From the IMG/VR virus record IMGVR_UViG_3300031857_000638, positions 1 to 35,952 of that record: a stretch of 35,952 nucleotides of DNA, one strand, 5' to 3'. A program made the position numbers and the translations under genes. The notes beneath the pieces were generated by a model, which did not search any database, was not told the origin of the DNA, and saw nothing but the letters and a program-made list of their open reading frames with translations. This document shows positions 3,944-25,674 of the stretch, one piece after another. This stretch comes from a virus. The first letter of the stretch is position 1. Every line of letters begins with the position of its first letter.

Positions 3944-5137
3944 TTACTTAATCACAACAATTGCTGTAACTTCACCGATGCCTTCTGATGTTTTTGTAGT
4001 AAGGCTTCTTCCTATGACATTAAATGAACCTGCTTCGCCGTCTTTTGCTGCTCTTGCATAACCTTTTCCAGCACTAACAAGACGATCACCTTTTTTAACT
4101 TTACCTTTTACTTTTACTGGAACTCTACCACTAATAGCAACTGCAGGGTGTGTATTATCATCTCCTGCTGCACTGTTCATCATATACGCTGCGCTTGTGC
4201 TGATTACTCCAAATACATTATTACTCAATTCATCAACTACCGCTGTGATTTCAGCAACACCGCCCAGTTCAACCACTGTCCCAGCATCGTAAGGTTGATC
4301 CGCTTCAAAACGTTCCGCTAAGTCAGCATATGTAGCTTGCAATCTAGCACTAGGACTAAGCTGCCAAATACCAGTAATATTGCCGCCACCTGCTAACTCG
4401 CTAGTTGTAACTTTGTTAGGTGCAATGTTTCCAGTAAATTGTGTCACTGCATTCGCCCCGGTAAGATAATCGAATACATTTGCATTAGTATAAGTACCAG
4501 CCGGATTAAATGGTACACCATTACCATACATGTACCTATCGCATTTTATACCAAATGAATTAGATGTCCATGATATATTACCATTTTGCATAGTCCAGTT
4601 ACCTTGTGCTGACCATGCCCCTACAATAGTACCACCTGTTGTAGCACCACCTGTTGTAATTGAAGTAGTATTGGCTGATCCTAATCGTGCGACTGTTAAA
4701 TTTGCATTTGCTGCAAATAAATTACCTGTAACATTAGCTGTAGTTACTGTAATTGAATTACCGATTATAGCGTTATTAGATGTAATATTGTTTGCAATGA
4801 TATTACCAGTTGCATTAACGTTAGCTAAGGTTGCATTACCTGCTGCTGTTGTAGATGTTAATGTAATCCAATTACTTGCTACAAGGGTACCATCAGCTGG
4901 ACATATACTTAATGTGTTTGTGGTTGTATTAAACCATAGTTGTCCTCTCAGAGGATTAGGGGGAGGAGAACTTGAGGCATAACTTTCAAGCTGTCTAACA
5001 AAGTTTGTATCTAAAACTTGTCCGTAATTAGACTTGTTTCGTCCAGGAAGTCCCAATGATGTACTATTGGTATTAATTGTACCGTCTTGAATTGTTGTTA
5101 GTACAGTACCGTCGCTTCGTATAATTGTATATGCCAT
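3944..5137 (-). CDS. Tail-fibre protein with repetitive shaft and conserved C-terminal domain (397 aa)
   Basis: The N-terminus (AYTIIRSDGTVLTTIQDGTI, then a LWFNTTTNTL motif near 67-76) is one I associate with fibre proteins of marine T4-like phages and probably attaches to the virion. Residues about 95-165 form a repetitive Asn/Ala/Thr-rich shaft (ANVNATGNIIANNITS and variants). From about residue 268 a compact domain begins with ATYADLAERFEADQPYDAGT and continues with GRVPVKVKGKVKKGDRLVSA. It resembles C-terminal domains of other phage fibres, some of which act as autoproteolytic or trimerising chaperones; that activity is not shown here. The gene has its own late-type promoter right after the 206-aa gene and a GGAG ribosome binding site 9 bases before the ATG. 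Its likely role is host recognition. Confidence 0.85.
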   Translation of the reverse strand: MAYTIIRSDGTVLTTIQDGTINTNSTSLGLPGRNKSNYGQVLDTNFVRQLESYASSSPPPNPLRGQLWFNTTTNTLSICPADGTLVASNWITLTSTTAAGNATLANVNATGNIIANNITSNNAIIGNSITVTTANVTGNLFAANANLTVARLGSANTTSITTGGATTGGTIVGAWSAQGNWTMQNGNISWTSNSFGIKCDRYMYGNGVPFNPAGTYTNANVFDYLTGANAVTQFTGNIAPNKVTTSELAGGGNITGIWQLSPSARLQATYADLAERFEADQPYDAGTVVELGGVAEITAVVDELSNNVFGVISTSAAYMMNSAAGDDNTHPAVAISGRVPVKVKGKVKKGDRLVSAGKGYARAAKDGEAGSFNVIGRSLTTKTSEGIGEVTAIVVIK

Positions 5138-5174: not shown

Positions 5175-5795
5175 TTATATGGTAACAAGGTTTGTTAAAC
5201 TTTGAATACGCACTGTGTAATCTATTTGAATCTGTCTATTAAGACTTTTTTGAACCGGATGAAAAATGACATGGGTCAATAGTCTTGTGGTTTCGTTTCC
5301 GGCTGGGTCAGTGCCATAATCTGCTAAAAGCCCAATTTCATCAAACGTATAAGTAGATTCTAACTGGGTACTATTATCAAATGCTGCTTGGCCAGCTGGT
5401 TCTCCGTAGTCGAGTAAGCACTGAACTACTATATCACTGTAAACTTTTCCTATTATGTGCGACACGACCATTTTATTTCTTGCAGGATCTGTGTTTAGAA
5501 CACTGGTGTCATCTACAATTTTTTCATAAGTTTGATTATATAATGCTGCATTTTGACCTGTCGTATTAGGTGGTAAATATGTAATAATTCCGGTGCTATC
5601 GATGCTTGCTCCGCCGTTTCCAAACGCCATTTTAAAAATACCACCATATCCCCTACTACTTAATGTATCAGCGATGGATTCTGACATATTTTCATAATGT
5701 ATTGCATTTTTTTTGTCAACAAGAATCTCTCCTGTATTAGGATCAGAAATTTTGACGAAACCTTCTATTTTTAATTGATAATTTATTGTAGACAT
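5175..5795 (-). CDS. Virion structural protein, tail/baseplate-associated (206 aa)
   Basis: A 206-residue protein with an N-terminal strand-rich motif GFVKISDPNTGEILVDKKNA (residues 12-31), followed by IHYENMSESIADTLS and a GGIFKMAFGNGGASID motif. The order of motifs is one I recognise from structural proteins encoded near tail fibres in T4-like marine phages, where the exact role is unknown. The ATG overlaps the stop of the upstream 48-aa ORF (TAATG), and AGAGG sits 9 bases upstream inside that ORF, so translation is well supported. Residues 13-29 resemble the C-terminal half of the 48-aa product. The ORF probably depends on the late promoter at 5948-5955. Attachment of fibres to the baseplate is a plausible but unproven role. 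Confidence 0.8.
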   Translation of the reverse strand: MSTINYQLKIEGFVKISDPNTGEILVDKKNAIHYENMSESIADTLSSRGYGGIFKMAFGNGGASIDSTGIITYLPPNTTGQNAALYNQTYEKIVDDTSVLNTDPARNKMVVSHIIGKVYSDIVVQCLLDYGEPAGQAAFDNSTQLESTYTFDEIGLLADYGTDPAGNETTRLLTHVIFHPVQKSLNRQIQIDYTVRIQSLTNLVTI

Positions 5796-5963: not shown

Positions 5964-8900
5964 TTAGTCGCTTTTTAAGAAATTAGCTGGTACAGAGTTA
6001 CTTATCTGTAATGGATCCCCTGAGGCTGCATAGTCATCAGAATTCCAAACTTTGTTATTATAGAAAGAATCTAGTATATCTTTAGTAGATAGACTAAACA
6101 CATAAGAATAGGTGTCATGAACAGGAAGGGCTGCTGTCCCATCTACCCCTCTTGTTATTCCAGATAACGTATTAGTACTGATATTTGCGAGTTTAAATGA
6201 TATTTTTTCCCCATTTATAAGAATCGCCTTACCAAATCGCAAAGTAATTACCAAATTATCCCCTAAACTTACATCATCTGTGAAAACTATCTTAGTAACA
6301 GAATTTACAGTGTCCAAATAATATTTGGATTGGTTTAATATAATTTCAGTAGTTTCGTTATAAATTGATAGTAACACAATATCAACTATACTATAATTTA
6401 AATAGACAAGTAGTTGATTATTCACATTTTGAACAATAGCGTTTGTTGTTTCATCGTCTAATAATGTAGTTATGTCATTAACATGAATTTCAGTATCAGT
6501 CGGGTACAATGGGTCAACTAACCAAGTTCTATTTTGAAGGTTACTATTACTAATAGTCATACTACCTTTCCTATCAACCTGAAGTGAATACCAAAGTTCA
6601 TTTGGGGTCGGGGAAGGCATGAAACTCGTAACTATAATTGTATTACCTAAACTGATAGGAGACATAATACTTAATCTATTGTTAGGCTGATTTATTCTTA
6701 AATTGTCTGGGGTAACTCTAGTACCGTTGATATGTACAAACAATCTATTCACATCAACAACATCAAATGTTGGTTGAGTCAACTGAATAGTATTTGTGTA
6801 TTTCCAAATATACCCACCTGATCCTACCCCATTAATAAAATAAGTACCAAAAGTATTTCCAATTACAGGTATTGACATGGTTGAATCTAAATACAGTTCA
6901 AATGGATAATACGTTACTGCGTTTTCAACATATGTGGGTAAAGGTCTTACATAAAAAATATTATTATTAATTTCTGGTATGTTTTGAACTCCGTCGATTA
7001 AAACTTGATCTTGATCAACAAAATTGGGATTAGTTGCTGTAGTAATTATCACCGGAGTTGCAGGGGTATTTACATAATATATAGGAGTAACTCGTATAGT
7101 GGTAGATGTTTGCGTCACAAAATATTGATTTTGCGTATCGTTAAATGATGTTACACTCACTATAGTTGTAGCAGGTATAGAAGGTAGTATAGTTAAGGTG
7201 TTACCTACAATAGTATAATCAATCGTGTTTCTTGCACGAATACCATCTACTTCAACTACTGCATTAGTAGCATTGCTACCTCCCATAAAGTTAGTTAAAG
7301 TAAACACTTGTGGCCCACTAGTGTATTGAAATACCTGAGTTTCTGGCATACAATATTGGTACGAATTTGTAGTAGTAGGACCAAATATAGCAAAACTTAC
7401 ATATTGTGTTGTAGAATCTACTATTGAATCAAAAATTATTCTAATTGAATTTGATTTATTTGGCTCTATTCTGTAATCAGTGTTTAATGTTTGTTTTACT
7501 CCATTTATATAAACCACAGAAAATAAATAAACTCCTGATCTAAATGGATATTCTGTGTCAATATAACTTTCATTTTTTTCAGTATCTAATTTGATAGGAA
7601 TAGTGTCTGATGTTCCTTTTGATTGTTGATTTCCTCCACCAATATCATAACACTCAAAATAAATTTTTTCCGTTGGAGAAATAGGAGATGTCAAAGTAAC
7701 AGTTTTGTTTACCCAATTAATTGTTTGAATTTTTGTTAGGCTAGTTGCGGTTGGTACATCACTTACTTTATAGATTCTAGTCGCTCTGGTGTTTGAAGAA
7801 GATATAATATATACCGCAATTTCTGTCACAAATGGTGATATACCTGCAAATGAAAACTGAGTGATATTTTCAGTTTCTATAGTCACTCCTACCATATTAA
7901 AACCAAAATTATCATATACGCCTGGGTCCCAAAGTGAGCCTGGTGTAGTTTTGACAATCATTTGTAAATTATCAGAAATCACAGCAGGAACCATTTCTTC
8001 TGGTCCATAACCCGACAGGAACGTTTCTCCCTGAATAGTGTATTGAGGTTCTTCTACAAGTAAAAATGAAATATTTTCCCAATCAATTATATTTCTACTT
8101 CTTAAAATTGTTGAATTTTCACCGACTACTATTAAATAAGTACCATCAAAACTTATTTCATTTAAAGTATTAACTGTAATTGTAGCTGTTTGGTTCCAAA
8201 CTTGACCATCACCGCTGTATAACACAATACCGTTATTTCCAACTAATACGTAAGTGTTTAATGCAAATATACCATGATTAATTTCTGTAGTAAACACAGG
8301 ACCTAATATCGTTGCAGGATTCCAGTTACTAGCATTGACTGACCAATATATTTTACCTAACTCCCCTGCTGCAATAATTTTTGTGGGTGAATTAAAAACT
8401 GTGTTAAATTTTGCGTCAATTGTTTGATTTGTGTTTGTCCACTCTATACCGTCATAGCTTATAATTACTCTTGATTGTTCCTCAAAAACTGGTGAAGGAG
8501 TATTTGCCCCTTCAATGACTGAAGTACCACTACCAACTGCGACAAATCCTTCAAATATGAGGCCTGATCCAGAAATATAACTTACAGATTTTAAAACATT
8601 TGGCAATCTACTTTGAAAACTAAACCCTGTTCCCCAACTTGTTGCATTAATACTGGTTAAGAGGTTGCTACCTACCGCCACATAGTTATTATTGTAATAT
8701 GCAACACTATAAAGCTCATCGTTCGGAGTTTCTACAGAAAGTGTATCGAACCCTGTAACATCAAAAGGTGCGTCATCAAAAACAGTATAAGACCCAACAC
8801 TTACCCAATTATATCCATCATAACTAATAAGTAAAGGTGCACTAGAATTTTGAGCGGAAATCACATAAAAAGAACCTGAATAAATTATACTTGTTACATT

Positions 8901-11900
8901 TAAAGGAACATCACTAATCTTTTTGAATAACCAGTCTCTTCCGTTCGTGCTATATAAAACTGTAGCATGATTTGGTGTATTACCTACAGCGACATATTTC
9001 ATTCCATCGTACACTATACTCTTTATATCAATTTCTTTTGGATAAAATGGCTGCCCCTGTAAATTAACATCTAATTCAAAATCTTCATCAAACTTATTAC
9101 CTAAATTAGTTCCGTTAGGATATTCTAAGCCTGACAATAACAAAGGTAAATAGTTACCTGGCATGTTACCTGTAGGTTGATAGTATGTAACTATTCTATC
9201 AAGTGCATTAATTCCTAAATAGTCACTTTGCAACAGTTCCCATTTTGTAAAATCAAATGTGCTATCGCTATTTGCAACGATGCACTTATACAATTTATTA
9301 TTGTAGGCTACTAGCGAAGCTGATGGTGTTGTAAATGGTTCCGGATAAAATCCGATATCCCCTGTGGTAAATATAAACGGAGTTCCAACTGTATTCTTTA
9401 CTGGATCTGTTAATATTGAATTGTAATATAATCTGCACTGAGTAGCTGTTATGGGCACAGTATAGTATTCGGCATAAGCGTTAGCACAGATTCCACTAAG
9501 TGAATAAAATACTATGCCTCCTGATTGAGCGAAGGTAACTGTTATTATCAAATCATTAGCAGGGCTAGTACCTCCTAATAACGATCCTGAAATAGTAATT
9601 TTATCACCGGTTGTGTAAATATTTCCAAAATCTTTTATATCAATAAAGTACTCATTAAGCACAGTTTGTCCATAAATCTTAGGACTAGTGACCCAAATAA
9701 TTGCACCACCTGATCCAGAATTATCATATATGTATGGAGTTGTTAATCTACTAGTCTTGTAGAAATATAATTTTGTTTTATTTAAATATCCTGCACTTAA
9801 TGTACTAGCAGCATAGTTAAAAGTAACAATTACATTGTTAGTACCTGTCTCAGTCGTAACGTTAGTAATAGGAACTGTTGCACCTTGTAAACTGGACCTA
9901 AAAACAGTAGAAGGGATTCCTTCTACTACATACTGAGTTATTGATCCAGGAAGTGTAACTTGCGCAACAGTGATTGTACAACTGTTGAGAGGTGCGGTTC
10001 CGCCTAAAGAAGTACCAGGTATAGTAATTACGTCACCAACTTGATAGCCTAACCCACCACTATTAAGGTCTGCAGTATAGACTCCATAAGTATTTCCTGA
10101 TGAATTAAAATTAGGTGGTTCATCTTCATTTCCATATATCCAAGCGTACACATTGAATATAGCACCGTTTCCTCCCGGCGGGGCTACAGAACCAGAAACA
10201 GAATTATAAGGTATTGCAGTTGCTAATCTACTTCCGTAACTTGCATCATTTCCAATACTGTTATAATCAGAGATGTAGAATTGATTAGGGGCCCAAGGTT
10301 GAACTACTGGGGTATAACTTGTTCTATCAAACTTCAAGATAGGAGTAATTTGTCTTGTAGGAGCATTACTTGATATTGGGATTAATCTAGCTCCCAGTGA
10401 TAGAATATGATTATCACTTGGTGTTTTACTTTGAACTAAACTTAATCGATACGTATCATTTATAGCATTAATTTTTGAAATGTAAAATGCTATTGCAGTT
10501 GGTCTGTTTTCGTTAGCTAAAGTAACTGTGGGTTTTTGCAGCCCATATTCAATTAGTCTAATGTAATAATATTGCTTATCAATCAATCCTAAAATAGGAG
10601 TTACATTATCACCTTTTCTATACTGTAATAAGTCTCCTGTTTCAAAAAGTTTGAAAGGAACGTTTACGGTATTATTTGTAAAATTAATATCAGTAGAGTC
10701 AAATTTATGTTCTATCGCTGGTTCAATAATGAGTTCTGGTAGAACTTTATATCCTTCACCTGAGTTTAAAATAGTAACTGCAATGACTTCATCTCCTGAC
10801 ATTTGTGCTTTGATCGCAGCTTGAACCTTAGGAGCAGGAAAAATTGAAGTATCAACATATGTGATTATATTAGGTGGTTCGGTATAGGCTCTGCCTGCAT
10901 ACAATACAGTTACAGCAGGTAAGTCAATATAAATTTTAGTACCCGGCATGTGTTCTACGACTTCGGTATCAAATGCTCCGCGTGTCAGTCCTGATAATAT
11001 ACCTAAATCTCTATCAACTTGATTATATCCGATGAATTCGTTATCTATTTTTATAACACCTGTTACAGGATAGCCAAATGCATTGTCTACGATAATAACT
11101 TTAGTTGCGACTGGCACATATGCTTTTAACAAACCAATAAAATAATTTGGTCTTCCTTGTAATTTAACTCCATAATTATTAAACCACTGATTGTATTGAG
11201 TTTCATCCCATATAGGATCAGTAGTAGTATATTGTGAGTCTTTTGTTGTATCACCAAAAACTAGCTCAGGTGTTACGAATGAATTTAATTCAGCATTCCA
11301 CTGAGAAGGTAAATCAAAATCAGTTATATTACCATCATAGATATTTGTTTTTGTATATTTTAAACTAAATTCTTTTAATTTTACTCTATATGGTTTAACT
11401 TCATTAATGTATCCATATAGAAAATCTTCATTGTCTCTTTGGAAATTTTTAATTTGTTCCAATTCTCTTAAGGTATGTTCAACATCTAAGAATGATGTTT
11501 TGTTTAACCAAGGCAAGTAATTACCAAATTCATCACTTTCGGTGATTATATAATTAAACAATAAAATTAAACCTTGATTTCTATAAATCAGCAAATCATC
11601 AGTAAATACTTCTTCATTTAATCCACGAATTATATTATATGTTTCGACAGAGGGAAACGTATCATAAGGATCGCTATCAAAAAAGCTATCACCGAATCCT
11701 ATACCATTAATGCTGTAATTCCAAAGCGAGTCTTTAATTTGAATTGTACCTAATTCTAACCCTATTCTCTGCCAAGAATTTACTCTGTAAATATAGACCT
11801 CACGTTTTCCGTTACTGTTAGAATTTACTCCGACTATCATATTTTCATACGGAGTTAGTTTTTCTAAATCGTAATATTTGGCAACATCAATATCAGTTTT

Positions 11901-14900
11901 TGTTGAGTCTGAATAACCTTCCTCCCACCAATTCACATATTCCCAATAATTATTTGTATCAAAATTATCACCCGAAATTGTAAAGAATGCAGGGGCATTT
12001 ACACCTGTTATTGCGGATCCGCCTAATGATAAGAAACTTGGATTTTTTAATTCTGTTATTGGAAACTTTATCATTACATTATTTGCAAATTGAACATAAT
12101 TTTGTAAAGCTTTTAATCTATTATAGAAAAAACTTTGATTAGGTCTTAAATTAGTTCCAGTTTGTAATAATCTAGGCAAGAATGGGTTAGGTACTGCTTG
12201 ACCTTGTGCATCAACACCAGCAAAACTATCTAGTAATTTTCTGTATAGTCCGTCTGGTCTTACAAGATTGTTGTATAGTGTTGGCAGTCCTGGTAAGAAA
12301 TCTTCAGCATAACCATCTCTTATTAATTTAAATTCAGTGTGTGCAACATCATTACCTAAGTTAGACTTAAATCCTAAGTGTAAGCTAGTAAAGTTTGAAC
12401 TAATATATTCAGATACATTATACAAACCAAATACGTTTTGCTTTAACGGTGCTAAAAATGCTATGCCTGAACTAATAGGATTGGATATGTATGATGAAAT
12501 GATATTATCAGAAAGCGTCTTGTTCGCACTTATTACATTGCCTATATTTTTTACCCAATAATAATATCTTGTAACAATTGTGCCGCCATTAATTACCTCA
12601 TAAAGAGTAGTGTAAGAATCAATATCATATACTGTCCCAACACCGGAATAATCGATAGGCAACACATCACTTTCTATCCAAGTATAAACCGAAACAATAC
12701 TGCCAGGAAATACACTACCCCAATATTTGCTATTATAAACTATATCATTTTGATGATAATCAATAAATCTTGTTTGAGAGGTGTCGAACCAAAGCTTACC
12801 AACATACTGTTGTCCCCAAACAACTTTTGTAGAACTATTATTGTTATATCCTGCAGGATCTACACTTGAAATATAATCAAGATTTTCTCTTACAGCTCCC
12901 AATAGTTTGCCCTGCAAAGGATCAATATAATCTAAATTTACAATATTTAGGCTATTAAGATTGTTGTAAATAGAAACTATGTGTAATGAGTCAATATCAA
13001 CACTTTGATTAGGATTTCTATAAACACTCCAGTCAGACGCATTAGAGTTGTTTATAAAAATGTTCGCACGACCATTTTCACTTCCTGTTAAATAGTTCGG
13101 AGAACCAATAATAACCTTATAGTCATTAAATGCTATAGAGGTTCCATAATATGGTACACTACCAATATTAGTAGAAGTATCGTTAAGGAGCTGCGCTAAT
13201 ACAAAATTTCCTATATTGTTTATACTTTCATTGTATGCTCCTAAATAATCGTACATGTAAGCAGAACCTGCTTCAACTAAAATATCTACAAATATAGTAA
13301 AATTATTATCAAATATGGTATCGTTTGTGTAATCTTCATCGTCAGTAAAATCAAAATTTGTTTGAGTGTACCTATTGCTCGTAGGAGCAGTAACTACAAA
13401 AGAATTAAATTCATTGAATTTAAGTGCGGATCCATATTGCGTTGCGTTTTGAATATTAGGATCGTGAAACTCTTGTGTTTTTTGATAATATGTGATTCCC
13501 AAACTAGCATAATCAGCTTCGGCAAAAACAGTTAAATTAAGTTTATCTCCGGATGTATTGAGATTTTGATTTATAAGTTGAATTACTAATTTATTATCTA
13601 TTGTTTTTGAAGCAGTTACGTTTGGTATATTCGCTTGTATTATAGCACTTACAGCGCCATCTATACCTGTGCTAGGTAATGTTACAAGAAAACCATTTAT
13701 TAAAATATTTTGCTGCGTTGAAAGTGAATACGCAGTTGAGCCAGTTATTATTCCAAATTTTTTGCCTGCATTAGTATAACGGTAAACGCTTCCTTCAGTA
13801 CCTGTAGCATCAACTATGTCGAACGGAGCACCAATTAATAGTTCATTACCAAACGTATTAATATCCAATCCTTTACCATAAAGCATTCCGATTCTAGGAT
13901 TAGAAACTTGGCTATGACCAATTAGTGTCTGAGATAAAACAAAATCATTTCCTTCAACTGTGATTAAATCGCCGGCGTTAATTTGAATATTAATAGTCAG
14001 TATATTAGTAGAAATAGTATAGTTACTTGTGCTTAACACAACACCATTTCGTAATACTGTCACTGAATTTACAGGAGTCCATCCTAATGTGAAGCTTGTA
14101 GTTAATGTAAGTATTGAATTGAAATTGCTTTCAAAAACCTGTCTAATTCTATTGTAAACATACACGGCTCCTGTATCTGTAACAGCATTAAAATCTTGAT
14201 TTGGTGCGCTTACAAATAATTGAGTTCCATTATAATTGGTAGCAATGTTTGATCCAAAATTTGTTGCCGATCCAGCACCAGTAATTGTTGCTACATTAGT
14301 GTAATTGTAATATGCTCTATAAACTATAGTACCTGCAGTAACGCCTGCAAAAAAGTAACCATCAATTGTAAAGGTTGTGGTGTTTGCTGAAGAACTATAT
14401 GTACCAGTTATTATTTTATAAGTTTGAGCAGTATCAGCATTAGAAAAACTAACCATTTGTCCTTCTAACAATAATGACCTTCTATCACCGCTTACAGTAA
14501 ATTGTGTGCCATTCTGCTGTATAGCTGTTGTTAAAGAATAGCCTATGCTTGTATAGGTTAAAAACGTATTTCTTCTATATGCAAAAACTTGTCTGGTTGA
14601 ACTTTTTCCAACAAAGAAATAATTACAATCATCTGACATTACTACTTTATCTGTAAGTCCGCTTACGTTAAAAGAATTTTGTAAAGCAACAGCTTCAATT
14701 TTTTCTGTTTGAACTAACTCATAAATGTACACTGTGCTTGTCGCTGCAGATTTTAACACTGCTAAAAAGTTTTGTTGCTTATCCATACTGGTACCAAAAC
14801 CAGTTGGGCTTGACGATAGTGTTATTGTTTCTTCTAAATTCCAAAAGTTTACATTTGAAATATACTTGTATCTGTAAATGTTTCCTGCACCCGAATCAGC

Positions 14901-17900
14901 TATAAAATATCCAAGCTTAGTGTCATAAGCAACACTACTTCCAAAGGTTGTAGTAGGAGATGGCTTAGTAAATGTGGTTGTACCTAAATAGTTAATTGAT
15001 TTTCTATAAACCGCCCATGTACCATCTATATTTTCGTCTACCCAAACAGTATTTTTTACAAATTCTGTATCTAATAAATTTAAATTTATAATATCTTTTG
15101 GTGAATTTACTCTTTGATTTTGTAATTTAGAAACGATACCTGTTGATTCTATATTTGGTATAGATAACGGTAAGCTCAAATCAATCACAACTGAGTTTGC
15201 ATTACCTATTTTTACAACAACGTGAAAACCGTCTACAGCACTTGCATAATTCAAAATTAATATTACAGAATTAACTGTTAAGCCGTGAGGTTTGCTGAAA
15301 AATACTGTACATGTATCATTTAAATTATTAACAACATTTACAATAGAAATTACGTCAGTAGAATTACTTAGAGAAATGGTTGCATAAGCTTTCCAATCTC
15401 CCTTAAAATCAGCTATCCATACATATTCATTTTTATAAACATCATTAATTGAAACTAGATTTTGATTTAAATTCGTTACCTTATATGAATGCATTTTGAC
15501 ATCTTCAAAATTTACATATCCAGCTGAAGGCAACTGATTCATTTTATAAGATGGTAATAAAGGTAAAATTCTTATATTTTGCGGGACACGACCATAGTTA
15601 GTCAGTCCATACAGAGGTATTTCTTGCATCGACCCTGGTTCAGATTCACCATTTATTACACTAATGATTGAGGGATTTCCGTTTAACTTTTGTTCTTCAA
15701 GCTTAAATTCAATAAAGTTTTGATCTAATACACCGCCGTAGTTTCCAACATTTATAGACCAATTTTCATAAACAGTATAGTTTATTCCTCCTGTAGGCAA
15801 ACTTATATTTTGAATTGCAGAAGTGGCTTGTTTACTTCCTTTCTCTACAATCATAGTTTTATATAAATTTACTTGAGATATATCATCTAAATTAGCAGCG
15901 ACTAGGTAATTTCTTGGTCTATATCCAATAAGAGAAAATGCTAATAAATCCGCATCATTTTCCAAATTTGCAGTGTATGAATTATAATATAAAGTGCTTT
16001 CATATGCTCTGCTACTTGCATTCGGTAATAACCCTTTTTGTATTTCATCATAATCTACTTTTGTCCAAAATCCTTGTTGAAAGGTATCTGACGGTTGGAT
16101 TATTTCATTAGCAGCGTAATAATTATTTTTATATTTGACGATAATACCTTTAGTATATTTGGTATTGATTTGCCATTCCAAAACATTGTCTTGATTTAAA
16201 ATAAAACCCTTAGTATCAACTGTGCCGTCCCACGTAGCAGTTTTTGCTCCTTTTAAAAGCATACGATACTGTCGTAGACCTGTATTAGGATCGTAAATTA
16301 AATCATTAAAAAGTGTAACGTTATCAAACACAATCGCATGTTCCATATTACTAAGGTTAGCATTAAGGTATGCAATAGTATCATCAACTTTGATTGGAAT
16401 CGCAGAGAATTCAACACCATTACGAATAACTGACATATCCTTAATTTGTATAGGAATCAAATTCTGATTCAAAATGTAATTTTGTTCTTGAATAGTAAGA
16501 GGTTGTACAATAGAGTTTTCTTTGTCTATAACAATCTTTTTAGCTAAAGGATTTATATTTAGTATTGAACCTGTTTCCCACCCTGCTTGTATCCATGCAA
16601 GAACTTCTTGAATCATAGTGTTCCAATTGAGAATTACATTATTTTCTACTTGATCAAATAAGAGTCCCTGAGAACTTAAATAGTTTCCATACCCATTTAT
16701 AAATTCTGCTAAAGCCTGCGGCGTACTAAACTCTGTACTGTAAGGTACAATTATCACTCTATCACTAGAATTTTTTGATATTTTTACTGATAAAGATCCA
16801 GACGTAATTGTTTCGTATTTACCATTTACTAATGGAGCCAATGCTTTAAAATAAATTTTGTTTTGGCTATTTCCATAAACCTGATATCCTGTATCAGTTT
16901 TTTGAATTATAATTGAACTATAAATTATTGTGTCAAACGGCTGATTTTCATGTAATAAAACACTATAGCTTTCATCTGGTATTAGTAGAGTATTATTTTT
17001 GCTATTCGGTGAGCCTTTGTCTACATAAAACTTCAGCAATTCTTTGTCACTGAATCCAGCTAATCTGTATACCAAACGAACATCTAGATTGTTTAAATAA
17101 TTTGTAAGTAGATCATAACCTGAGTTACCAGTACTCTGTACATAATCTACAATCCAATTTATATAACTATGTTGTGCTGTTCCACTACCATACACAACGG
17201 TGCCTGTTGTAGTAAATCTAAATTTATCATTTAACAAATATTGATTAAATTCTGTATTATATTTGTAGGTATCTAAATTTTCACCCAATGCAAAAAACTT
17301 TGCTGGCTTACATAACGCTAAAATTTTAACTAAATCAAAAGGCCAAGTGCTACTTTTTAGATAACTATATTCGGCAGGCCCCCAATCACCTACTTTCCAT
17401 TGAGTTTGAAAGGTTAATTCATCATAATTACCTATAACGGAATTTAATGGATCTACTAAGTTACCTAAATCATCTACTGGCAAAACTTTTAACAAACCTG
17501 GTCTTTTTCTAGACTCAATTATTATAGGATTACCGTCATTATAATCATAGCCATTTTCCATATCAGTCCACAACACCAAGTTATTTTTAGTATAAGGTGC
17601 TGCGCCATAATAGCCATCCCACCAAACTGGTTTATTAGTATATCCAATTAGTTCCCATGGAGTTAAGTTTGGAGTTGCAGTATCGAAAAACCAATTGTAA
17701 AGACCCTTCCAATTGCCTCTTTTTACAATTGTGTTGTCTAATTTATTTGTAGCTTGATAATAATTATATGTATATGGATCGGTTGTAATATAGTATTGTG
17801 ATTTGTAATCTATTCTATTTTGTCCTACCCAATTTAAAAAGGATAAAGAATATAATTGTAAAATTTCATCGTAATTATAATTTGTTTTTCTAAACTGTCC

Positions 17901-20900
17901 AGGTAAAATTTCATCACTTGATATAGGAATTCTAGAACTAACTTTTATATTATTATAAATTCTACATTCGAACTCAAAAATTACCTGATCTCTATAATCA
18001 GTAAGATTACCATTTGTATAACTTCCGTATAGCGTAGTTAACGAACCATCATGTCCTTTAATAAACCACGTTGGTGTTAGATAAGAAGAATCGTAAACAA
18101 CCTCAGGTACGGTTGCAGGATAAAATCCTAACTTAGTTGGTGTGTTTGGAACATAACTTCCATAAGTTTGGTTATATTCATTAACGACTATTACATCACC
18201 TGCGATTAAATCTGTTTGAACTGTTACTAAAGGTTCGTCTGCACTCACAGTATAATCGACATTTCTGATTAATTGTTTTTCTACTAGAACTCCCTCTACC
18301 TCTCTCAACACATAAAGAAGTACACCATTATAATTGGCAGAGCTAAAATTATAAATCTTACTTAAAGAAAATTGTGCTTGTTGTACATCCGCTTTAAAAG
18401 TATATCTATTAGTAATATACGCTCCTCTGTTTGGAAGCATGTCTGACCAAAAGAATGAGTTATTTTGAGCTTTAAAAGAGGTAATTTCATTAATAGCGTT
18501 ATCTAAAATAGTAGATGCTATTTGATAACTTTCATAAGGAGTTTTATTTACGATATCTATCAACAAACTTTTATACTTAACATATTCGTTTGCATTAAAG
18601 TTTAAAGCATCAATTAAATTATAATTTGCATTTTTTAACAAAGCTCCTGTCAATGACAGTGGAGCACTATTTTGAATAATTTTAGTTCCGTATCTAACTA
18701 GATTGGGCAAATCTCTATAATTGTTGGAACCAAAAATTTGACCTGTAATTCTTTTGCTGTTTGTGCAAATACTTAAGTAGTGATTTTTTAAATCTCCTAA
18801 ATTTAAATTTTTTATTTGTGCGTTGAAAATATTATTTTCTAAATTTGTGGGAATAGTAAAATATGCATTTTTACTAACTTGATTACTATAAATTAAAATT
18901 TGCACTGGTGTTTCTAAAATTGGATTAGCATTTAAAGTTACAATTGTAGTATTATTTTCTACTACATAACTAAATTCACTGTCAAATAATACATTATCTC
19001 TAACAGTAACTTTAATTACAGGCCATGCAGTAGATTCTGATGAATTTGCTGGTACATCACAAATAAATTTAGCATCTCCGTTTAAAGGATTGTAGTTAAA
19101 TGTGAACGCCTGATATTGAAAACTTTCTGATATAGCTGTTTGCCATCCTAACTCTCGATTATATGTGTCACGTGAATTATAATTATATACGTATCCTTCA
19201 TTAACATTTTGTGTAGTTGGGTTTCCATTTAATACATAGGTAAATTGATCCGTATTAAAAGAAACATCAAATTGAATATCTCCTATGTTATCTACTGAAC
19301 TATATTTTAAAGGAAATCCCAGTACGGGATCATTATTCCCTGTTCCAGTTGCATATTGAAATAAAGATGTTCCAATAAAACTAGAACTATTATAATAATC
19401 TGTATCACCAAAACTTAAACCATTAGTATCAAATACATCAAATAAAGGTGGCTGATTTACTGTTGTTTTGAGTTGTCCCTGAATCCAATTTGTTCCATCA
19501 AACCAATACGTATATCCCTTTCTTACTTGTCCTAGTAAAACAACAACTTGGTCAAGATTTTCTATGTCACCGTTCGCAATCTTTGTAAATGTTATGATTG
19601 GTGGTGCCTGTGTTAAAAGAACGTTCCCTGAATCATTGGATAATTGTATAAATGAACTTAAATTAGGGTCCGTGCTTAATCTAAGTGAAGTAGTATTAGG
19701 TTTATCGTACACATAATATTTGGTAAATGCAGATAATCCACCTATACTTTGATTCAAAGAAACTAAACTACCCACAACAAATTTCGTTGAATCAGAAACA
19801 GTTAACCTATCAGTGGAAGCAGACGTTGAAACAATTGTAGTTGATGTTTGTAGTGCCTCCGCAGTTGAAACAAAATTTACTCTAAAAATTTTGTTTCTAA
19901 CATTAACGTCTGTGTCCGCAGAAAATACGACCCGACAGCCGTCAAATAAACCAAAACTTGATCCGTCTGGATAATATTGCAATTGATTTGCAACTTGTGT
20001 AAAGGCGTCTGTAGCGGTTACATCAAAATAATCGACTGGTCCTCTAGCCTCAGTACCTAAATTAAATAATTTTAAATTAGGATAAAATTCAATAATTGGT
20101 CGTTTTGCTCTGGCTTCATTACTGTTAATTACGTTTAATAAATTACTACTATTAGTGTGTTTAATAGTTTCTTGTATTACTTGTGAGTGAAACCATCTAT
20201 TTCCGCGTGACCATGCATTTAAATTATTTGCTGCTCTACTAATTGTAATATAATCTTGTGCAATTGGTGATTCAACAATATCAGAGTATGGTGCTATATC
20301 ATATGGCGATATATCGTATGGATAATATACACTTTGAGAATATGATTCTGGAGTTACAAGTGATGAATTTGGTATTAATTTAATTCCTGTCCCTACACCT
20401 TCTACATAATATTGGTCATTCTTGTATTTCTCAGGAATAATATCTCCTGAGAAACTAATTTTTAAACCATTAGTAAATTTTACATTATTAGGAGAAGTAT
20501 AAGTTAACTTACCTAAAATTTCAGTTTCTACATTTATAAAATTTTCAGTATTGTTATCAACTATTTTTATTATGCCGAATTTTTTTAAATTAGAACTATC
20601 TTGATAATACAAAACATCTAAAGGAGCAGTTATTTCTGGAATAATTTGTATCTCACCAGTTTGTAAACGAACAAACTTTTTAGAAATATATTTGTTTCCT
20701 GATAAAACTGTTATATTCGTATCTTGTGGGATAACAGTTAGTGGAGTAAGACTTATTATAGGGTCACCTGGTATATCAGTTTCATTATAATTAACTTTGA
20801 AGAAAAATTGATTTACGTTGACAAATGTAGTAGAATCAAATCCTACAGGATTTATTGTATCCTGATCAAAAGGAAGCTCATCAAAAAATGTTTCTACCGA

Positions 20901-21803
20901 TGCATTTTGCAGAGCAGATGATCCATAAAACAAAATAGTTTTGTCAAGTAAATTGGTTGCACCATCAATATTTCCAATTGTGCTTAATCGTTGACCATGT
21001 ATGTTAGTAAAGGCTTGATCGCTTACTAGGTCTACATTTATATTCCCCTGATATGTAGTTTCGTTCTGTGCATCTGATCTAGGGACATTAAAAGTAATTA
21101 CTCCCTCGTTTGTTCCGTTATTTTCTAATCCAAAAATATCTCTGGTGCTAACATTTGTTCTGTTAGGTACAGTGCCAGACAATCCAGGCATTGTTTGAAT
21201 CCAAAATTTTGAATTTTGTTTAACATTAAAATAGTATGTTCCGCCTCTTAAGAGTGTTATAACCGGGTTAAATTCTTCTATTTTAAAATTATCTTGTATG
21301 AACAAAAATTCATTTGTCTGACTTATTACATCAAAAAATGAAGTTAAATTTACCGGTAAAGGTTCGACATTAACAACATCAGGACCAAACGGTAACCAAT
21401 AATATTGACTATAATTTGACAGTTTATCTAAATCTGCAAAACTATCCCAACTATAAAATTGATTATCAAACAATAAAGAGTTATTAGTAATTGGTGCGCC
21501 CTGTAGTTTTAGCGCATCAATCATTTCAGGATAACTTATAAAATCTATAGCACGGCTAGTCTCATTTTTTTTAAAAATGATAGCTGGTTCTAATTGATAA
21601 TCTGTTCTTGTTTTATTAATTTCAGGTACGTAATAGGAATTAGGAGTAAGACCATATTCAAATCTTCTTCCAATATAACCTTGTAATTTTTCTAAATCTT
21701 GCTGTTTAACAAGTTGATCCAATGTGGCGGATAGAAAATTTTCATTAGGTGTTGTTTTAAAAATTTCTGGAAGAAAATCAATTGTTCTTACTTGCGCTAC
21801 CAT
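5964..21803 (-). CDS. Giant baseplate/tail structural protein (5279 aa), gp7-position
   Basis: One uninterrupted reading frame of 15.8 kb, starting 11 bases after gp6. The N-terminus (TIDFLPEIFKTTPNENFLSA, then ATLDQLVKQQDLEKL and YYWLPFGPDVV near 130) and internal segments (WKVGDWGPAEYSYL; NEVKPYRVKLKEF, with P at 3471) are of a kind I know from very large structural proteins of marine T4-like phages. Its position after gp6 is that of T4 gene 7 (about 1030 aa), so a baseplate wedge role is inferred. Two repeat regions stand out: FG-GAP-like blades about 2287-2920 (F/Y-G starts at 2287, 2336, 2516, 2642, 2790, 2886) and seven YDG...W repeats about 4260-4580. Paired LGGT(A/S)P modules lie at 3933 and 4076, and two L(S)G(L/I)TRG modules at 3607 and 5217. 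Only a weak GGAAAA site precedes the ATG, with no late promoter. Confidence 0.9.
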   Translation of the reverse strand: MVAQVRTIDFLPEIFKTTPNENFLSATLDQLVKQQDLEKLQGYIGRRFEYGLTPNSYYVPEINKTRTDYQLEPAIIFKKNETSRAIDFISYPEMIDALKLQGAPITNNSLLFDNQFYSWDSFADLDKLSNYSQYYWLPFGPDVVNVEPLPVNLTSFFDVISQTNEFLFIQDNFKIEEFNPVITLLRGGTYYFNVKQNSKFWIQTMPGLSGTVPNRTNVSTRDIFGLENNGTNEGVITFNVPRSDAQNETTYQGNINVDLVSDQAFTNIHGQRLSTIGNIDGATNLLDKTILFYGSSALQNASVETFFDELPFDQDTINPVGFDSTTFVNVNQFFFKVNYNETDIPGDPIISLTPLTVIPQDTNITVLSGNKYISKKFVRLQTGEIQIIPEITAPLDVLYYQDSSNLKKFGIIKIVDNNTENFINVETEILGKLTYTSPNNVKFTNGLKISFSGDIIPEKYKNDQYYVEGVGTGIKLIPNSSLVTPESYSQSVYYPYDISPYDIAPYSDIVESPIAQDYITISRAANNLNAWSRGNRWFHSQVIQETIKHTNSSNLLNVINSNEARAKRPIIEFYPNLKLFNLGTEARGPVDYFDVTATDAFTQVANQLQYYPDGSSFGLFDGCRVVFSADTDVNVRNKIFRVNFVSTAEALQTSTTIVSTSASTDRLTVSDSTKFVVGSLVSLNQSIGGLSAFTKYYVYDKPNTTSLRLSTDPNLSSFIQLSNDSGNVLLTQAPPIITFTKIANGDIENLDQVVVLLGQVRKGYTYWFDGTNWIQGQLKTTVNQPPLFDVFDTNGLSFGDTDYYNSSSFIGTSLFQYATGTGNNDPVLGFPLKYSSVDNIGDIQFDVSFNTDQFTYVLNGNPTTQNVNEGYVYNYNSRDTYNRELGWQTAISESFQYQAFTFNYNPLNGDAKFICDVPANSSESTAWPVIKVTVRDNVLFDSEFSYVVENNTTIVTLNANPILETPVQILIYSNQVSKNAYFTIPTNLENNIFNAQIKNLNLGDLKNHYLSICTNSKRITGQIFGSNNYRDLPNLVRYGTKIIQNSAPLSLTGALLKNANYNLIDALNFNANEYVKYKSLLIDIVNKTPYESYQIASTILDNAINEITSFKAQNNSFFWSDMLPNRGAYITNRYTFKADVQQAQFSLSKIYNFSSANYNGVLLYVLREVEGVLVEKQLIRNVDYTVSADEPLVTVQTDLIAGDVIVVNEYNQTYGSYVPNTPTKLGFYPATVPEVVYDSSYLTPTWFIKGHDGSLTTLYGSYTNGNLTDYRDQVIFEFECRIYNNIKVSSRIPISSDEILPGQFRKTNYNYDEILQLYSLSFLNWVGQNRIDYKSQYYITTDPYTYNYYQATNKLDNTIVKRGNWKGLYNWFFDTATPNLTPWELIGYTNKPVWWDGYYGAAPYTKNNLVLWTDMENGYDYNDGNPIIIESRKRPGLLKVLPVDDLGNLVDPLNSVIGNYDELTFQTQWKVGDWGPAEYSYLKSSTWPFDLVKILALCKPAKFFALGENLDTYKYNTEFNQYLLNDKFRFTTTGTVVYGSGTAQHSYINWIVDYVQSTGNSGYDLLTNYLNNLDVRLVYRLAGFSDKELLKFYVDKGSPNSKNNTLLIPDESYSVLLHENQPFDTIIYSSIIIQKTDTGYQVYGNSQNKIYFKALAPLVNGKYETITSGSLSVKISKNSSDRVIIVPYSTEFSTPQALAEFINGYGNYLSSQGLLFDQVENNVILNWNTMIQEVLAWIQAGWETGSILNINPLAKKIVIDKENSIVQPLTIQEQNYILNQNLIPIQIKDMSVIRNGVEFSAIPIKVDDTIAYLNANLSNMEHAIVFDNVTLFNDLIYDPNTGLRQYRMLLKGAKTATWDGTVDTKGFILNQDNVLEWQINTKYTKGIIVKYKNNYYAANEIIQPSDTFQQGFWTKVDYDEIQKGLLPNASSRAYESTLYYNSYTANLENDADLLAFSLIGYRPRNYLVAANLDDISQVNLYKTMIVEKGSKQATSAIQNISLPTGGINYTVYENWSINVGNYGGVLDQNFIEFKLEEQKLNGNPSIISVINGESEPGSMQEIPLYGLTNYGRVPQNIRILPLLPSYKMNQLPSAGYVNFEDVKMHSYKVTNLNQNLVSINDVYKNEYVWIADFKGDWKAYATISLSNSTDVISIVNVVNNLNDTCTVFFSKPHGLTVNSVILILNYASAVDGFHVVVKIGNANSVVIDLSLPLSIPNIESTGIVSKLQNQRVNSPKDIINLNLLDTEFVKNTVWVDENIDGTWAVYRKSINYLGTTTFTKPSPTTTFGSSVAYDTKLGYFIADSGAGNIYRYKYISNVNFWNLEETITLSSSPTGFGTSMDKQQNFLAVLKSAATSTVYIYELVQTEKIEAVALQNSFNVSGLTDKVVMSDDCNYFFVGKSSTRQVFAYRRNTFLTYTSIGYSLTTAIQQNGTQFTVSGDRRSLLLEGQMVSFSNADTAQTYKIITGTYSSSANTTTFTIDGYFFAGVTAGTIVYRAYYNYTNVATITGAGSATNFGSNIATNYNGTQLFVSAPNQDFNAVTDTGAVYVYNRIRQVFESNFNSILTLTTSFTLGWTPVNSVTVLRNGVVLSTSNYTISTNILTINIQINAGDLITVEGNDFVLSQTLIGHSQVSNPRIGMLYGKGLDINTFGNELLIGAPFDIVDATGTEGSVYRYTNAGKKFGIITGSTAYSLSTQQNILINGFLVTLPSTGIDGAVSAIIQANIPNVTASKTIDNKLVIQLINQNLNTSGDKLNLTVFAEADYASLGITYYQKTQEFHDPNIQNATQYGSALKFNEFNSFVVTAPTSNRYTQTNFDFTDDEDYTNDTIFDNNFTIFVDILVEAGSAYMYDYLGAYNESINNIGNFVLAQLLNDTSTNIGSVPYYGTSIAFNDYKVIIGSPNYLTGSENGRANIFINNSNASDWSVYRNPNQSVDIDSLHIVSIYNNLNSLNIVNLDYIDPLQGKLLGAVRENLDYISSVDPAGYNNNSSTKVVWGQQYVGKLWFDTSQTRFIDYHQNDIVYNSKYWGSVFPGSIVSVYTWIESDVLPIDYSGVGTVYDIDSYTTLYEVINGGTIVTRYYYWVKNIGNVISANKTLSDNIISSYISNPISSGIAFLAPLKQNVFGLYNVSEYISSNFTSLHLGFKSNLGNDVAHTEFKLIRDGYAEDFLPGLPTLYNNLVRPDGLYRKLLDSFAGVDAQGQAVPNPFLPRLLQTGTNLRPNQSFFYNRLKALQNYVQFANNVMIKFPITELKNPSFLSLGGSAITGVNAPAFFTISGDNFDTNNYWEYVNWWEEGYSDSTKTDIDVAKYYDLEKLTPYENMIVGVNSNSNGKREVYIYRVNSWQRIGLELGTIQIKDSLWNYSINGIGFGDSFFDSDPYDTFPSVETYNIIRGLNEEVFTDDLLIYRNQGLILLFNYIITESDEFGNYLPWLNKTSFLDVEHTLRELEQIKNFQRDNEDFLYGYINEVKPYRVKLKEFSLKYTKTNIYDGNITDFDLPSQWNAELNSFVTPELVFGDTTKDSQYTTTDPIWDETQYNQWFNNYGVKLQGRPNYFIGLLKAYVPVATKVIIVDNAFGYPVTGVIKIDNEFIGYNQVDRDLGILSGLTRGAFDTEVVEHMPGTKIYIDLPAVTVLYAGRAYTEPPNIITYVDTSIFPAPKVQAAIKAQMSGDEVIAVTILNSGEGYKVLPELIIEPAIEHKFDSTDINFTNNTVNVPFKLFETGDLLQYRKGDNVTPILGLIDKQYYYIRLIEYGLQKPTVTLANENRPTAIAFYISKINAINDTYRLSLVQSKTPSDNHILSLGARLIPISSNAPTRQITPILKFDRTSYTPVVQPWAPNQFYISDYNSIGNDASYGSRLATAIPYNSVSGSVAPPGGNGAIFNVYAWIYGNEDEPPNFNSSGNTYGVYTADLNSGGLGYQVGDVITIPGTSLGGTAPLNSCTITVAQVTLPGSITQYVVEGIPSTVFRSSLQGATVPITNVTTETGTNNVIVTFNYAASTLSAGYLNKTKLYFYKTSRLTTPYIYDNSGSGGAIIWVTSPKIYGQTVLNEYFIDIKDFGNIYTTGDKITISGSLLGGTSPANDLIITVTFAQSGGIVFYSLSGICANAYAEYYTVPITATQCRLYYNSILTDPVKNTVGTPFIFTTGDIGFYPEPFTTPSASLVAYNNKLYKCIVANSDSTFDFTKWELLQSDYLGINALDRIVTYYQPTGNMPGNYLPLLLSGLEYPNGTNLGNKFDEDFELDVNLQGQPFYPKEIDIKSIVYDGMKYVAVGNTPNHATVLYSTNGRDWLFKKISDVPLNVTSIIYSGSFYVISAQNSSAPLLISYDGYNWVSVGSYTVFDDAPFDVTGFDTLSVETPNDELYSVAYYNNNYVAVGSNLLTSINATSWGTGFSFQSRLPNVLKSVSYISGSGLIFEGFVAVGSGTSVIEGANTPSPVFEEQSRVIISYDGIEWTNTNQTIDAKFNTVFNSPTKIIAAGELGKIYWSVNASNWNPATILGPVFTTEINHGIFALNTYVLVGNNGIVLYSGDGQVWNQTATITVNTLNEISFDGTYLIVVGENSTILRSRNIIDWENISFLLVEEPQYTIQGETFLSGYGPEEMVPAVISDNLQMIVKTTPGSLWDPGVYDNFGFNMVGVTIETENITQFSFAGISPFVTEIAVYIISSSNTRATRIYKVSDVPTATSLTKIQTINWVNKTVTLTSPISPTEKIYFECYDIGGGNQQSKGTSDTIPIKLDTEKNESYIDTEYPFRSGVYLFSVVYINGVKQTLNTDYRIEPNKSNSIRIIFDSIVDSTTQYVSFAIFGPTTTNSYQYCMPETQVFQYTSGPQVFTLTNFMGGSNATNAVVEVDGIRARNTIDYTIVGNTLTILPSIPATTIVSVTSFNDTQNQYFVTQTSTTIRVTPIYYVNTPATPVIITTATNPNFVDQDQVLIDGVQNIPEINNNIFYVRPLPTYVENAVTYYPFELYLDSTMSIPVIGNTFGTYFINGVGSGGYIWKYTNTIQLTQPTFDVVDVNRLFVHINGTRVTPDNLRINQPNNRLSIMSPISLGNTIIVTSFMPSPTPNELWYSLQVDRKGSMTISNSNLQNRTWLVDPLYPTDTEIHVNDITTLLDDETTNAIVQNVNNQLLVYLNYSIVDIVLLSIYNETTEIILNQSKYYLDTVNSVTKIVFTDDVSLGDNLVITLRFGKAILINGEKISFKLANISTNTLSGITRGVDGTAALPVHDTYSYVFSLSTKDILDSFYNNKVWNSDDYAASGDPLQISNSVPANFLKSD

Positions 21804-21814
21804 ATATTTTTCCG

Positions 21815-24800
21815 TTAAGGTTGTAGTTGTTCAGGAGTAATCGCTGAAATAATAACTATATCGTTTGATTGAGCACCGTTCACAAAAATCTCATACGGCG
21901 CACACCTTATTTCATATAAATCACCAAAAGTCAAAGAGGGGTCTTTTGGAACTAAGATCGCAGAACTTATAAGTCCATCTAAATTTGAATGTAAGTATGC
22001 GCTTAGTTCACTAAAAAAGAAGGTATCTCCAAAATCCCAATTATCAATACTAAAATAATTATTCATTGCAGTAATAACTGCAGCACGAACTTCACTATCA
22101 CTCGCTGTTGTCAGACTAGACTTTATTACTTTAATAGTAGCCTGTAGCTGAGGAGAAGCTTTGTTACCAAAAAGAGGTTTGAAAGTGACGCTATTTAAAA
22201 CAATTGTGTCACTCATCATTTTGTAGTCATTTACTTTGTTATATTCTTGTGTTAATTGTTCTACTGTTGGTCTCAGTGGTTCAGATACAGTTCCCGTTGT
22301 GTCTTTAATCCAGTTGTTATAAGAAGTATAATAAGCCAAAGTTACTACATATAAATCAATGATGTTTGTTGTACCAGGATCAATTCTTGTAGTGTTATTA
22401 CTTAAATGATTGTATTGAAAAAATAAACTTTGTCTTCCTGATTGTGAGGAATAATTTGTTACTTCTGTTAAATTTACGATGTTTAATGATGTTGTGTCAG
22501 CAACAGATTTATAAAATTTATTTTCTACGTATGTGTAAAAAATTTGTCCTACAGGAAATTCATATTTAACTACTTCAACATCGTTTTTATTTCCATAAGA
22601 ATAATTAATTAAAGTTGGTTCAGTTAATCCATTTTTTGTAAGATAATTAATATCAGTAAAAGTCTCAATAAAAACAAAATTTGAGGTGTTTGTTGAACCA
22701 AAAGTATAACCTGTAATGGTAGTAAAAAAATCTGGATTATCAATTAAAGAAGAATTTTTTGAGTCTAGACTACTTACCTCAATCGCATAATCATCAGGGT
22801 AACCGTCTGATTCAACTGTTTGTCCTACCACATTAAGTCTAAAATCTTCTCCTAAAATAGATAATGAATTAGGTGTCGTATTAGTTTTTAAAACTTTGAC
22901 CGTATCATAAGCTAAGGTTCCTGATAGAGGATCAAAAATAATTTTTTCTGAATCAAAAGTAAACCTTGTATTCTTAACACTTCCAAAATAATATGTGATA
23001 GCTTTACTTGTTATTCTATATGCACCCTCTCCTAAACTTTCAAATTTTATAAGAGCGTCTGGTCTATTATAGCTTCCTATAAACCATCTATTAACATTAA
23101 CCGGCAGAATATTCACATAATATAAAGAAAAACTTTGTAAATTCTCAAAATAAGTTAGAACTTCTTGCAATATTGGATTCGGTAAGATATTATCAAAAAC
23201 TGGAATAATAGTTTCAAGGATTGCACCAGTTGAAACAAACTTACTTAAACTTACTGGACCTAATCCATTATATAAATTGCCCTCACCCCCGTTAAACCCA
23301 TCCTCAACAACGTTTAAAACATTTACCCACATAAACGTATTATTAATTGAAGGTGCAGCTCCTGCTACTAATCTATCATTAAGAAAGTAATATCCAGATG
23401 GAGCAACAAATTTTAATAAAGAACCAGGTGTGCAATATTTCATATTATATGCACTATAAATACCCGCTGCAACAGGTCCTGCTACATTTTCAAAATAACC
23501 AGTAACTAGTGTACCATCATAACTCGTTTGATTCCATGTTGTAATGCCATCGCCTGAAGCAACATTAATAGGATATCTAGCACAGGTTACAACATAATAT
23601 TGATACAGATTTCTATTTGAGATAATTTCTAGAATTTGATTACTAAATAACCTATTAGCGGATCCTGATGCCTCACTTATATTAAAGTCGTAGAACTTAT
23701 CATTGCTGTTAAAATATAATGCTCCGTCATCAGAAAAACTAGTTGTGCTTGAATACTTGCCAGTTGGATCAAGTAAATCAAAATTTCTTGAAATTCCAAT
23801 AGAACTTCTATTTAAAGCTTTTGTTTTTATTATAGAACTGTAAAGTGTGTATGGAAAATTATTATAATCTTCACCATTTACCATTCTGTTTTGAGAATAA
23901 AAGTGTACGGGTGCTTTTGCTTTTATATCTGGTATAGACTCTCTTGATTGGGCATTATTAACAGGCTGTGTTAGCTCAACCGTCATAGTTAAAGTTTCAA
24001 TGCGATTAAATTTACTTACATAACTGAAAGTTAATGTAGTATTTGTTAGTTCAGCGGGATCGATTGAATATTGCAATCCATTACTTGATCTTACATATGC
24101 TCTAAAAGAACCAACAGGAATCTCACTAAAAACACCGTCCCCAAAAATATAATTTACTTGATCGTTAAATCTAGAAGTTACAGAAAATACTGATTTACGT
24201 GAATTTTCTTCCCTTAAATAAGTATTTGCATATAAATTATCTACTTGTTGCCAATAATTTAAATTATTATTAGTTGAATCAATTTTATACAACCATGTAT
24301 CAGTATTATTAATTCCTTGTATTTCTCCTATTGGAACTACCTGATTTGCAATTTGTTGATTTAATGTAAAATCATAATTTACAAGTGAACCTTGTTTAAA
24401 ATATAAAAAGAATCCAGTGTTTAAACTACCGTAACCTAATTTATCATTTCTGTATAAAATATTAAATGTGCCTTTTGGATTAGGAGGAATTTCGTACACA
24501 TAGGTTTGATTTAAACTTGTAGCACTCACCCCTTCAAAATTCATAGTTACACCACCAACTGTTGCATTAAAAGGTATAACAGGTAAAACAGTATTTGGAA
24601 TACGCAAAGAATATTCTTCAGTTTTAATATTTGAAATTTCTTGTGTATTACCAGGTCTCCCGACTCGTTGTGCATCAACTAATGTGGCATTTATTATAGA
24701 ATAAAATTGCTCTAACCAATTTGGATTAGCAGGGTCGTTCCAAAATACAGGTATACCTGCAAGACCTAAACCATTGATGTCTACAACATTTTCTGTTGTA

Positions 24801-25218: not shown

Positions 25219-25674
25219 TCAACGGTTATTTAATGATACTGTGCTACTCCCTTTATCAAAATTAAGTTGTAATAGCTGAACTTTGTTCTGAGGAGATACT
25301 GCCATTTCAATTTCTGTCAAAAATCCATTTTCATAGGGATAAGTTGTGATAGTGTTTAATATTATTCTAGGATCCTGAGCCGCAATGCGGCGAATTTCGT
25401 TGTCAATCTGAATTTGAATCTCAGGAATATTTGGTTCGAATATGTATGTCCAAATAGAGGTCCCATATGCAGGATTCCCTACTTTTTGTCCTTGTGGAGT
25501 ATTAAGAGCGTTTAAAAAATCGACTATCACAAGTTGATCATCATAAAGACTGAACTTTTTGTTTGGTAAAACAGGAGCAATAATTGATCCAGGACCACCA
25601 CTTATTCCAGGTGGAATAATTGAAGGTTTCTGTGCATTAGTGAATAATGTGCTAAATCCTTTGTATATAACCAT
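25219..25674 (-). CDS. 25: Baseplate wedge protein gp25
   Basis: A 151-residue protein of the gp25 family, the small wedge subunit that nucleates sheath assembly and resembles type VI secretion TssE. Residues 66-82 (GNPAYGTSIWTYIFEPN) contain the diagnostic EPN-type motif, followed by a helix (EIQIQIDNEIRRIAAQDPRI) and terminal beta strands (TEIEMAVSPQN). The first ~40 residues are a Gly/Pro-rich, marine-phage-like extension compared with T4 gp25 (132 aa). It sits between gp5 and gp6, consistent with a physical partnership with both. A TGAG sequence upstream of the ATG may act as the ribosome binding site, and the gap from gp5 is 13 bases. Confidence 0.93.
   Translation of the reverse strand: MVIYKGFSTLFTNAQKPSIIPPGISGGPGSIIAPVLPNKKFSLYDDQLVIVDFLNALNTPQGQKVGNPAYGTSIWTYIFEPNIPEIQIQIDNEIRRIAAQDPRIILNTITTYPYENGFLTEIEMAVSPQNKVQLLQLNFDKGSSTVSLNNR

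Follow-up and report, generated by a model that had tools for sequence, protein, structure and literature searches.

The window (the whole stretch of DNA analysed here, a 35952-bp IMG/VR fragment) carries a baseplate gene cluster of the T4 superfamily, in the order gp53, gp5, gp25, gp6 and a giant gene, with gp55, gp47 and gp46 on the opposite strand. The genes of this cluster and the two that follow it are:

30975..31280, minus strand, gp53-like baseplate wedge subunit
25688..28588, minus strand, gp5-like hub / tail lysozyme family protein
25219..25674, minus strand, gp25-like baseplate wedge subunit
21815..25171, minus strand, gp6-like baseplate wedge subunit of 1118 aa (PHROG 10646)
5964..21803, minus strand, giant virion structural protein of 5279 aa (PHROG 10938), from its ORF and profile match
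5175..5795, minus strand, 206-aa partner protein (PHROG 11259), present in every group member examined
3944..5137, minus strand, tail-fibre-like protein with a C-terminal Peptidase_G2-type self-cleaving chaperone domain

The giant ORF consists of 5279 codons with zero internal stops and takes up 44.06% of the window, which bears out the single uninterrupted frame of the preliminary description. The remaining two frames of the minus strand contain 470 and 673 stops, their longest open run being 60 codons, and the GC3 of the gene is 19% against a GC content of 33% for the overall sequence. An ORF of 5279 aa is also found in the independent contig L094, with 100% identity across the query slice, so the frame is no assembly accident, and close relatives possess ORFs of 5281, 5281, 5282, 5284, and 5364 aa. 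While an artefact of assembly or frame is ruled out by the identical ORF in independent contigs, simple repeat expansion is ruled out by the DNA itself, which has no long repeats, only diverged modules at the protein level. The gene is under purifying selection over its full length, strongest in the conserved scaffold described below. Compared with four close relatives (68-96% identity per segment), dN/dS is at most about 0.15 (<0.16) in every computable segment, with the smallest values in the scaffold (0.03-0.05 for core 1) and larger ones in the variable arm; as dS is saturated, only this ranking of segments is safe.

The protein is a member of PHROG 10938, a 3324-position family of RaK2-like giant virion structural proteins, with E-values of 2e-182 for its first half and 9e-50 for its second, the profile match spanning the N-terminus and both scaffold cores. 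With tblastn, the giant was found in 85 phage records, those listed being overwhelmingly jumbo phages, and the gp6 of the group in 91. A search of IMG/VR with a core slice gave at least 497 contigs with relatives, of which the best 80 were kept. Complete ORFs of the IMG/VR relatives range from 3585 to 6629 aa, and the window protein is therefore not the largest of its kind. Homologs of 3323-4555 aa lie directly after gp6 in the isolates PA5oct (gp355, 3857 aa), Atu_ph07 (gp180, 4449 aa), Phosso, 121Q (gene 582, 3323 aa), RaK2 (ORF070w, 3326 aa), GAP32 (GAP32_230, 3341 aa), and CBB (CBB_236, ~3340 aa). These share with the window protein the N-terminus, both scaffold cores and the location after gp6. 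However, the window protein is 0.7-2 kaa longer, its FG-GAP-type and Asp-box propellers and its CBM5/12-like patch were not found in the isolate proteins compared, and it has two TRG modules where the isolate giants have one or none. A divergent member of 3138 aa, annotated only as hypothetical, also follows gp6 in Stenotrophomonas phage RAS14 (L156:20971-30387).

The homolog of PA5oct carries the annotation ESI-MS/MS, and CBB_236, confirmed here to be the ORF adjoining the gp6 gene CBB_237, is listed for the CBB virion on the strength of 21 unique peptides, which cover 7.72% of the protein (PMC5259590). As these homologs have been annotated as detected by mass spectrometry or reported in virions, the giant of the window is very probably a structural protein too, in agreement with the earlier designation of it as a virion protein.

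The order gp55/gp47/gp46, gp53, gp5, gp25, gp6 and giant is common to PA5oct, 121Q, RaK2, GAP32, and CBB, and the order gp25-gp6-giant is also found in Atu_ph07 and Phosso. The giant gene directly follows gp6 in the gp53-gp5-gp25-gp6 cluster, with the exception of SCTP-2, where gp6 lies elsewhere and the giant is separated from it; the linkage of gp6 and giant is therefore not absolute. Another giant ORF, of about 3096 aa (L004:8609-17899), lies ahead of the giant in that phage. The partner protein of PHROG 11259 was present in 30 of 30 relatives compared (38-100% identity). Its gene is inverted and relocated in 121Q, RaK2, and GAP32, and the PA5oct copy is annotated as MS-detected. The fibre-like protein has an N-terminal portion of ~75 residues which is widely shared across relatives, sometimes in multiple copies per locus (L139, L140), and which looks like a shared anchor. 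Beyond these genes, positions 3-2597 of the window hold a cluster of uncharacterised genes, just one of which has a PHROG match (1903). Judged by eye, they are putatively glycosyltransferase-like, and two of them (1046-1843 and 1836-2597) are distant paralogues of each other with about 24% identity.

The conserved and variable segments of the giant were derived from an alignment of 35 family members, and all module boundaries given are approximate. Its parts are:

21354..21803, minus strand, residues 1-150, N-terminal segment, conserved across the whole family
21039..21323, minus strand, residues 161-255, module common to PHROG 677 (tail-fibre connector family, E 1e-6), a variable insertion
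15504..18413, minus strand, residues 1131-2100, scaffold core 1, present throughout the family
16059..16190, minus strand, residues ~1872-1915, predicted CBM5/12-like carbohydrate-binding patch inside core 1
12999..14951, minus strand, residues 2285-2935, FG-GAP-type beta-propeller repeats with inter-blade insertions
11169..12998, minus strand, residues 2936-3545, scaffold core 2, universal, with helices at its end
10908..11081, minus strand, residues 3575-3632, first TRG module, where the variable arm starts
6249..10907, minus strand, residues 3633-5185, variable arm flanked by the TRG modules
9915..10073, minus strand, residues 3911-3963, GxGY-type repeat 1, resembling residues 4054-4105 (E 7e-6)
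9489..9644, minus strand, residues 4054-4105, GxGY-type repeat 2
7989..9035, minus strand, residues 4257-4605, predicted Asp-box (BNR/Ycf48-like) beta-propeller
6072..6248, minus strand, residues 5186-5244, second (C-terminal) TRG module

Segments retained in nearly all aligned members are residues 1-150, 501-600, about 700-1130, 1200-2100, 2940-3545, and the C-terminus, with variable regions separating them. In separate HMM searches, each of the distant members tested proved to have the N-terminus and both cores. The universal scaffold is made up of the N-terminus (1-150), residues ~500-2100 and residues 2940-3545. Insertions in the longer relatives are frequently about 80 or 107 residues in length. 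Together, the alignment, the repeats and the Pfam and HMM searches support the proposal that the protein grew as complete domains were inserted into a conserved scaffold.

Structure prediction of slices had been put forward in the preliminary description as a check. AlphaFold models reach a pLDDT of about 90 across much of residues 1050-1840. The core 1 model had no Foldseek match in the PDB at E<=0.001 other than the local CBM-like patch, and among viral models its significant matches were confined to its own family and distant relatives. A phmmer search of the middle of the protein against the PDB returned only noise. For the region of residues 2040-2960, compared with the PDB only, the hits were mostly propeller proteins (best E 3.8e-8). 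TM-scores were low, and the first propeller is for this reason unproven as a closed ring. Of 29 relatives, 23 gave a Pfam FG-GAP_2 match in this region, the best at 6.9e-13, the window protein itself giving only E 0.5 (FG-GAP). About 7 repeats can be counted by eye, and this propeller is found in uncultivated relatives and not convincingly in isolates. The CBM5/12-like patch falls below the Pfam cut-off (E 0.063) and locally matches 3wx7 (1.8 A over 48 residues); none of the seven isolate proteins compared has it at the corresponding place.

Within the arm, residues 4257-4605 align with themselves as repeats, with E-values as low as 8e-12, and contain seven Asp-box motifs (at 4285, 4327, 4384, 4449, 4488, 4530, and 4569) spaced about 40-65 residues apart. 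In this region PSII_BNR was detected in 6 of 20 relatives and a match to the Ycf48 propeller was obtained at E 8.4e-7, and on its sequence it is predicted to be a seven-bladed Asp-box beta-propeller. This element is restricted to a clade of long members (n=23, including the window protein and its identical copy), 22 of which have two TRG copies bracketing an arm of 1.6-2.8 kaa, while shorter family members carry a single C-terminal copy or lack the module. The TRG module is roughly 45 residues long, and the two copies of the window protein, at residues 3583-3625 and 5193-5236, match one another at E 9e-8.

As the preliminary description stated, the gene, directly following gp6 and gp25, occupies the position of T4 gene 7. 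T4 gp7 (1032 aa), like the window protein, is encoded after gp6; however, it is five times shorter and homology between the two sequences is undetectable. Sequence of gp7 had been thought to be kept at the N-terminus and around residues 1350-1550 and 3440-3480. These stretches are conserved in the family, but neither profiles, Pfam models nor the gp7 core find anything of gp7 in them. The profile check of slices suggested there, run with hhalign on 13 slices against T4 gp7, gp8, gp9, gp10, gp11, and gp12, was empty, with a maximum probability of 5% (gp10) and at most 0.8 for gp7, and direct homology to these proteins was rejected. As a positive control, the gp6 of the window matched T4 gp6 with 72% probability and an E-value of 3e-5, hhalign E-values being uncalibrated and from single comparisons. 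The Pfam models for the Gp7 helical domain, domain V and domain VI match T4 gp7 and miss the window protein. By profile comparison, the gp7 core (the dFYs-KGT region of T4, phiN3, and cyanophages) is absent from the window family, and a search of nine whole isolate genomes from the group did not find it either; T4 and three cyanophages scored as controls, among them S-CREM2, which lies outside the alignment. An Asp-box-like motif (SNDKGQTW, residue 212), retained in several relatives, is present in T4 gp7 (L144:9061-12159), hinting at a propeller-type repeat there as well.

In cyanophages the gene after gp25-gp6 is likewise giant, with sizes from annotated coordinates of 6387 aa in Synechococcus phage S-IOM18 (L159:3216-22379, the T4 gp7 core still being matched), 4458 aa in MED4-213, 4225 aa in ACG-2014f, and 3007 aa in S-SSM7, and it matches the T4 gp7 profile. 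This giant gp7 of the Kyanoviridae (PHROG 701, e.g., S-IOM18) resembles the window protein in its place after gp25-gp6, its similar size, its modularity and its TRG module, but it has retained the core motif of T4 gp7, which is lacking from the window family. The TRG module is the sole piece shared between the window family and cyanophage gp7 (E 4e-9). Such features would fit a true gp7 ortholog diverged past sequence recognition, in parallel with the cyanophage proteins. To the identical position and the size that a recognisable gp7 can reach there may be added the order of helix then TRG, common to both at E 1.5e-7 over 113 columns. However, the helix alone is insignificant (5-9%), the TRG module is probably mobile, and the core motif is absent, even though the cyanophage core pairs with T4 gp7 at Prob 97 by the same method and the gp6 of the window is still recognisable as gp6. 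Orthology appears a tenable but rather unlikely explanation.

The giant might also be a protein of the tail-fibre or whisker type, encoded next to the wedge genes but with no part in the wedge itself. Its modular make-up, rich in propellers and CBMs, typifies proteins that contact the host, SCTP-2 has it uncoupled from gp6, and hair-like or whisker structures occur in CBB and Atu_ph07. We regard this as improbable nonetheless, since the scaffold is conserved like a core component and is present in isolates that have neither propeller, gp6 and the giant co-occur almost perfectly, and no other gp7 was found.

With regard to gp8, gp9, gp10, and gp11, earlier described as unrecognisable at this locus, Pfam models for gp7, gp8, gp9/10, and gp11 all remained below cut-off in eight whole isolate genomes carrying the family, T4 and K491 scoring as controls. 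It is possible that the giant also replaces gp8-gp11, although it is doubtful that one protein has assumed all the roles of gp7 to gp11, as divergence could hide gp8-gp11 and so account for their apparent absence, weak sub-threshold gp9/10-like matches exist in SCTP-2 and some long IMG/VR relatives, a downstream gene of PA5oct is noted as gp10-like, separate conserved structural genes (PHROG 11259 and the fibre gene) lie downstream, and S-IOM18 with its 6387-aa gp7 retains genes annotated gp8 and gp9, so that a giant does not imply their loss. Equally unlikely is the fuller version of this idea, in which one chain displaced gp7 and took on the outer-wedge roles of gp8-gp11, wedge and arm thereby forming a single polypeptide that would be re-armed by exchanging propellers and sugar-binding modules between its TRGs.

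On balance, the giant probably acts in the wedge region of a jumbo myophage of the RaK2-like group (T4 superfamily), combining a scaffold with a host-contact arm in gp7's place. This reading builds on the demonstrated ORF, family membership, gene order, modules and selection, and on the detection of homologs in virions. The universal scaffold would join gp6 and gp25 in each baseplate wedge, with location, contacts and copy number all presumed, and would have come to the structural place of T4 gp7 either by replacement or by divergence beyond recognition. Substitution of gp7 has a published precedent in the T4 superfamily, the VrlC-type proteins reported to stand in for gp7 in pelagimyophages and cyanomyophages (PMC7029224). 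Into the giant's scaffold, and onto its end between two TRG copies, the lineage has inserted whole modules, namely the CBM5/12-like patch, the FG-GAP-type propeller, the Asp-box propeller and the GxGY repeats. These probably form an arm reaching out from the baseplate, either to bind glycans on the host surface or to hold a fibre encoded by the downstream genes; the next two genes, for the PHROG 11259 protein and the fibre-like protein, fit such a model. Against this reading are the lack of sequence similarity to gp7, a core 1 that matches nothing in the PDB, and the separation of gp6 and giant in SCTP-2.

Giants at the gp7 position of cyanophages and the catalogued RaK2-like family were previously known. 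What appears to be new is the uncultivated clade of long members, which have two propellers and an arm bracketed by TRG modules, together with isolates in which gp7-gp11 are not recognisable; a brief search of the open-access literature found no paper on the anatomy of the giant. A common family (at least 497 IMG/VR contigs and 85 phage records), for which "hypothetical" or "virion structural protein" is usually the only label, can now be described as a scaffold that carries modules, with a role open to testing. Should it be a wedge protein, RaK2-like jumbo phages build baseplates in which gp7-gp11 are not recognisable, and the gp7 position would have been inflated in these phages and in cyanophages either separately or from one diverged ancestor.
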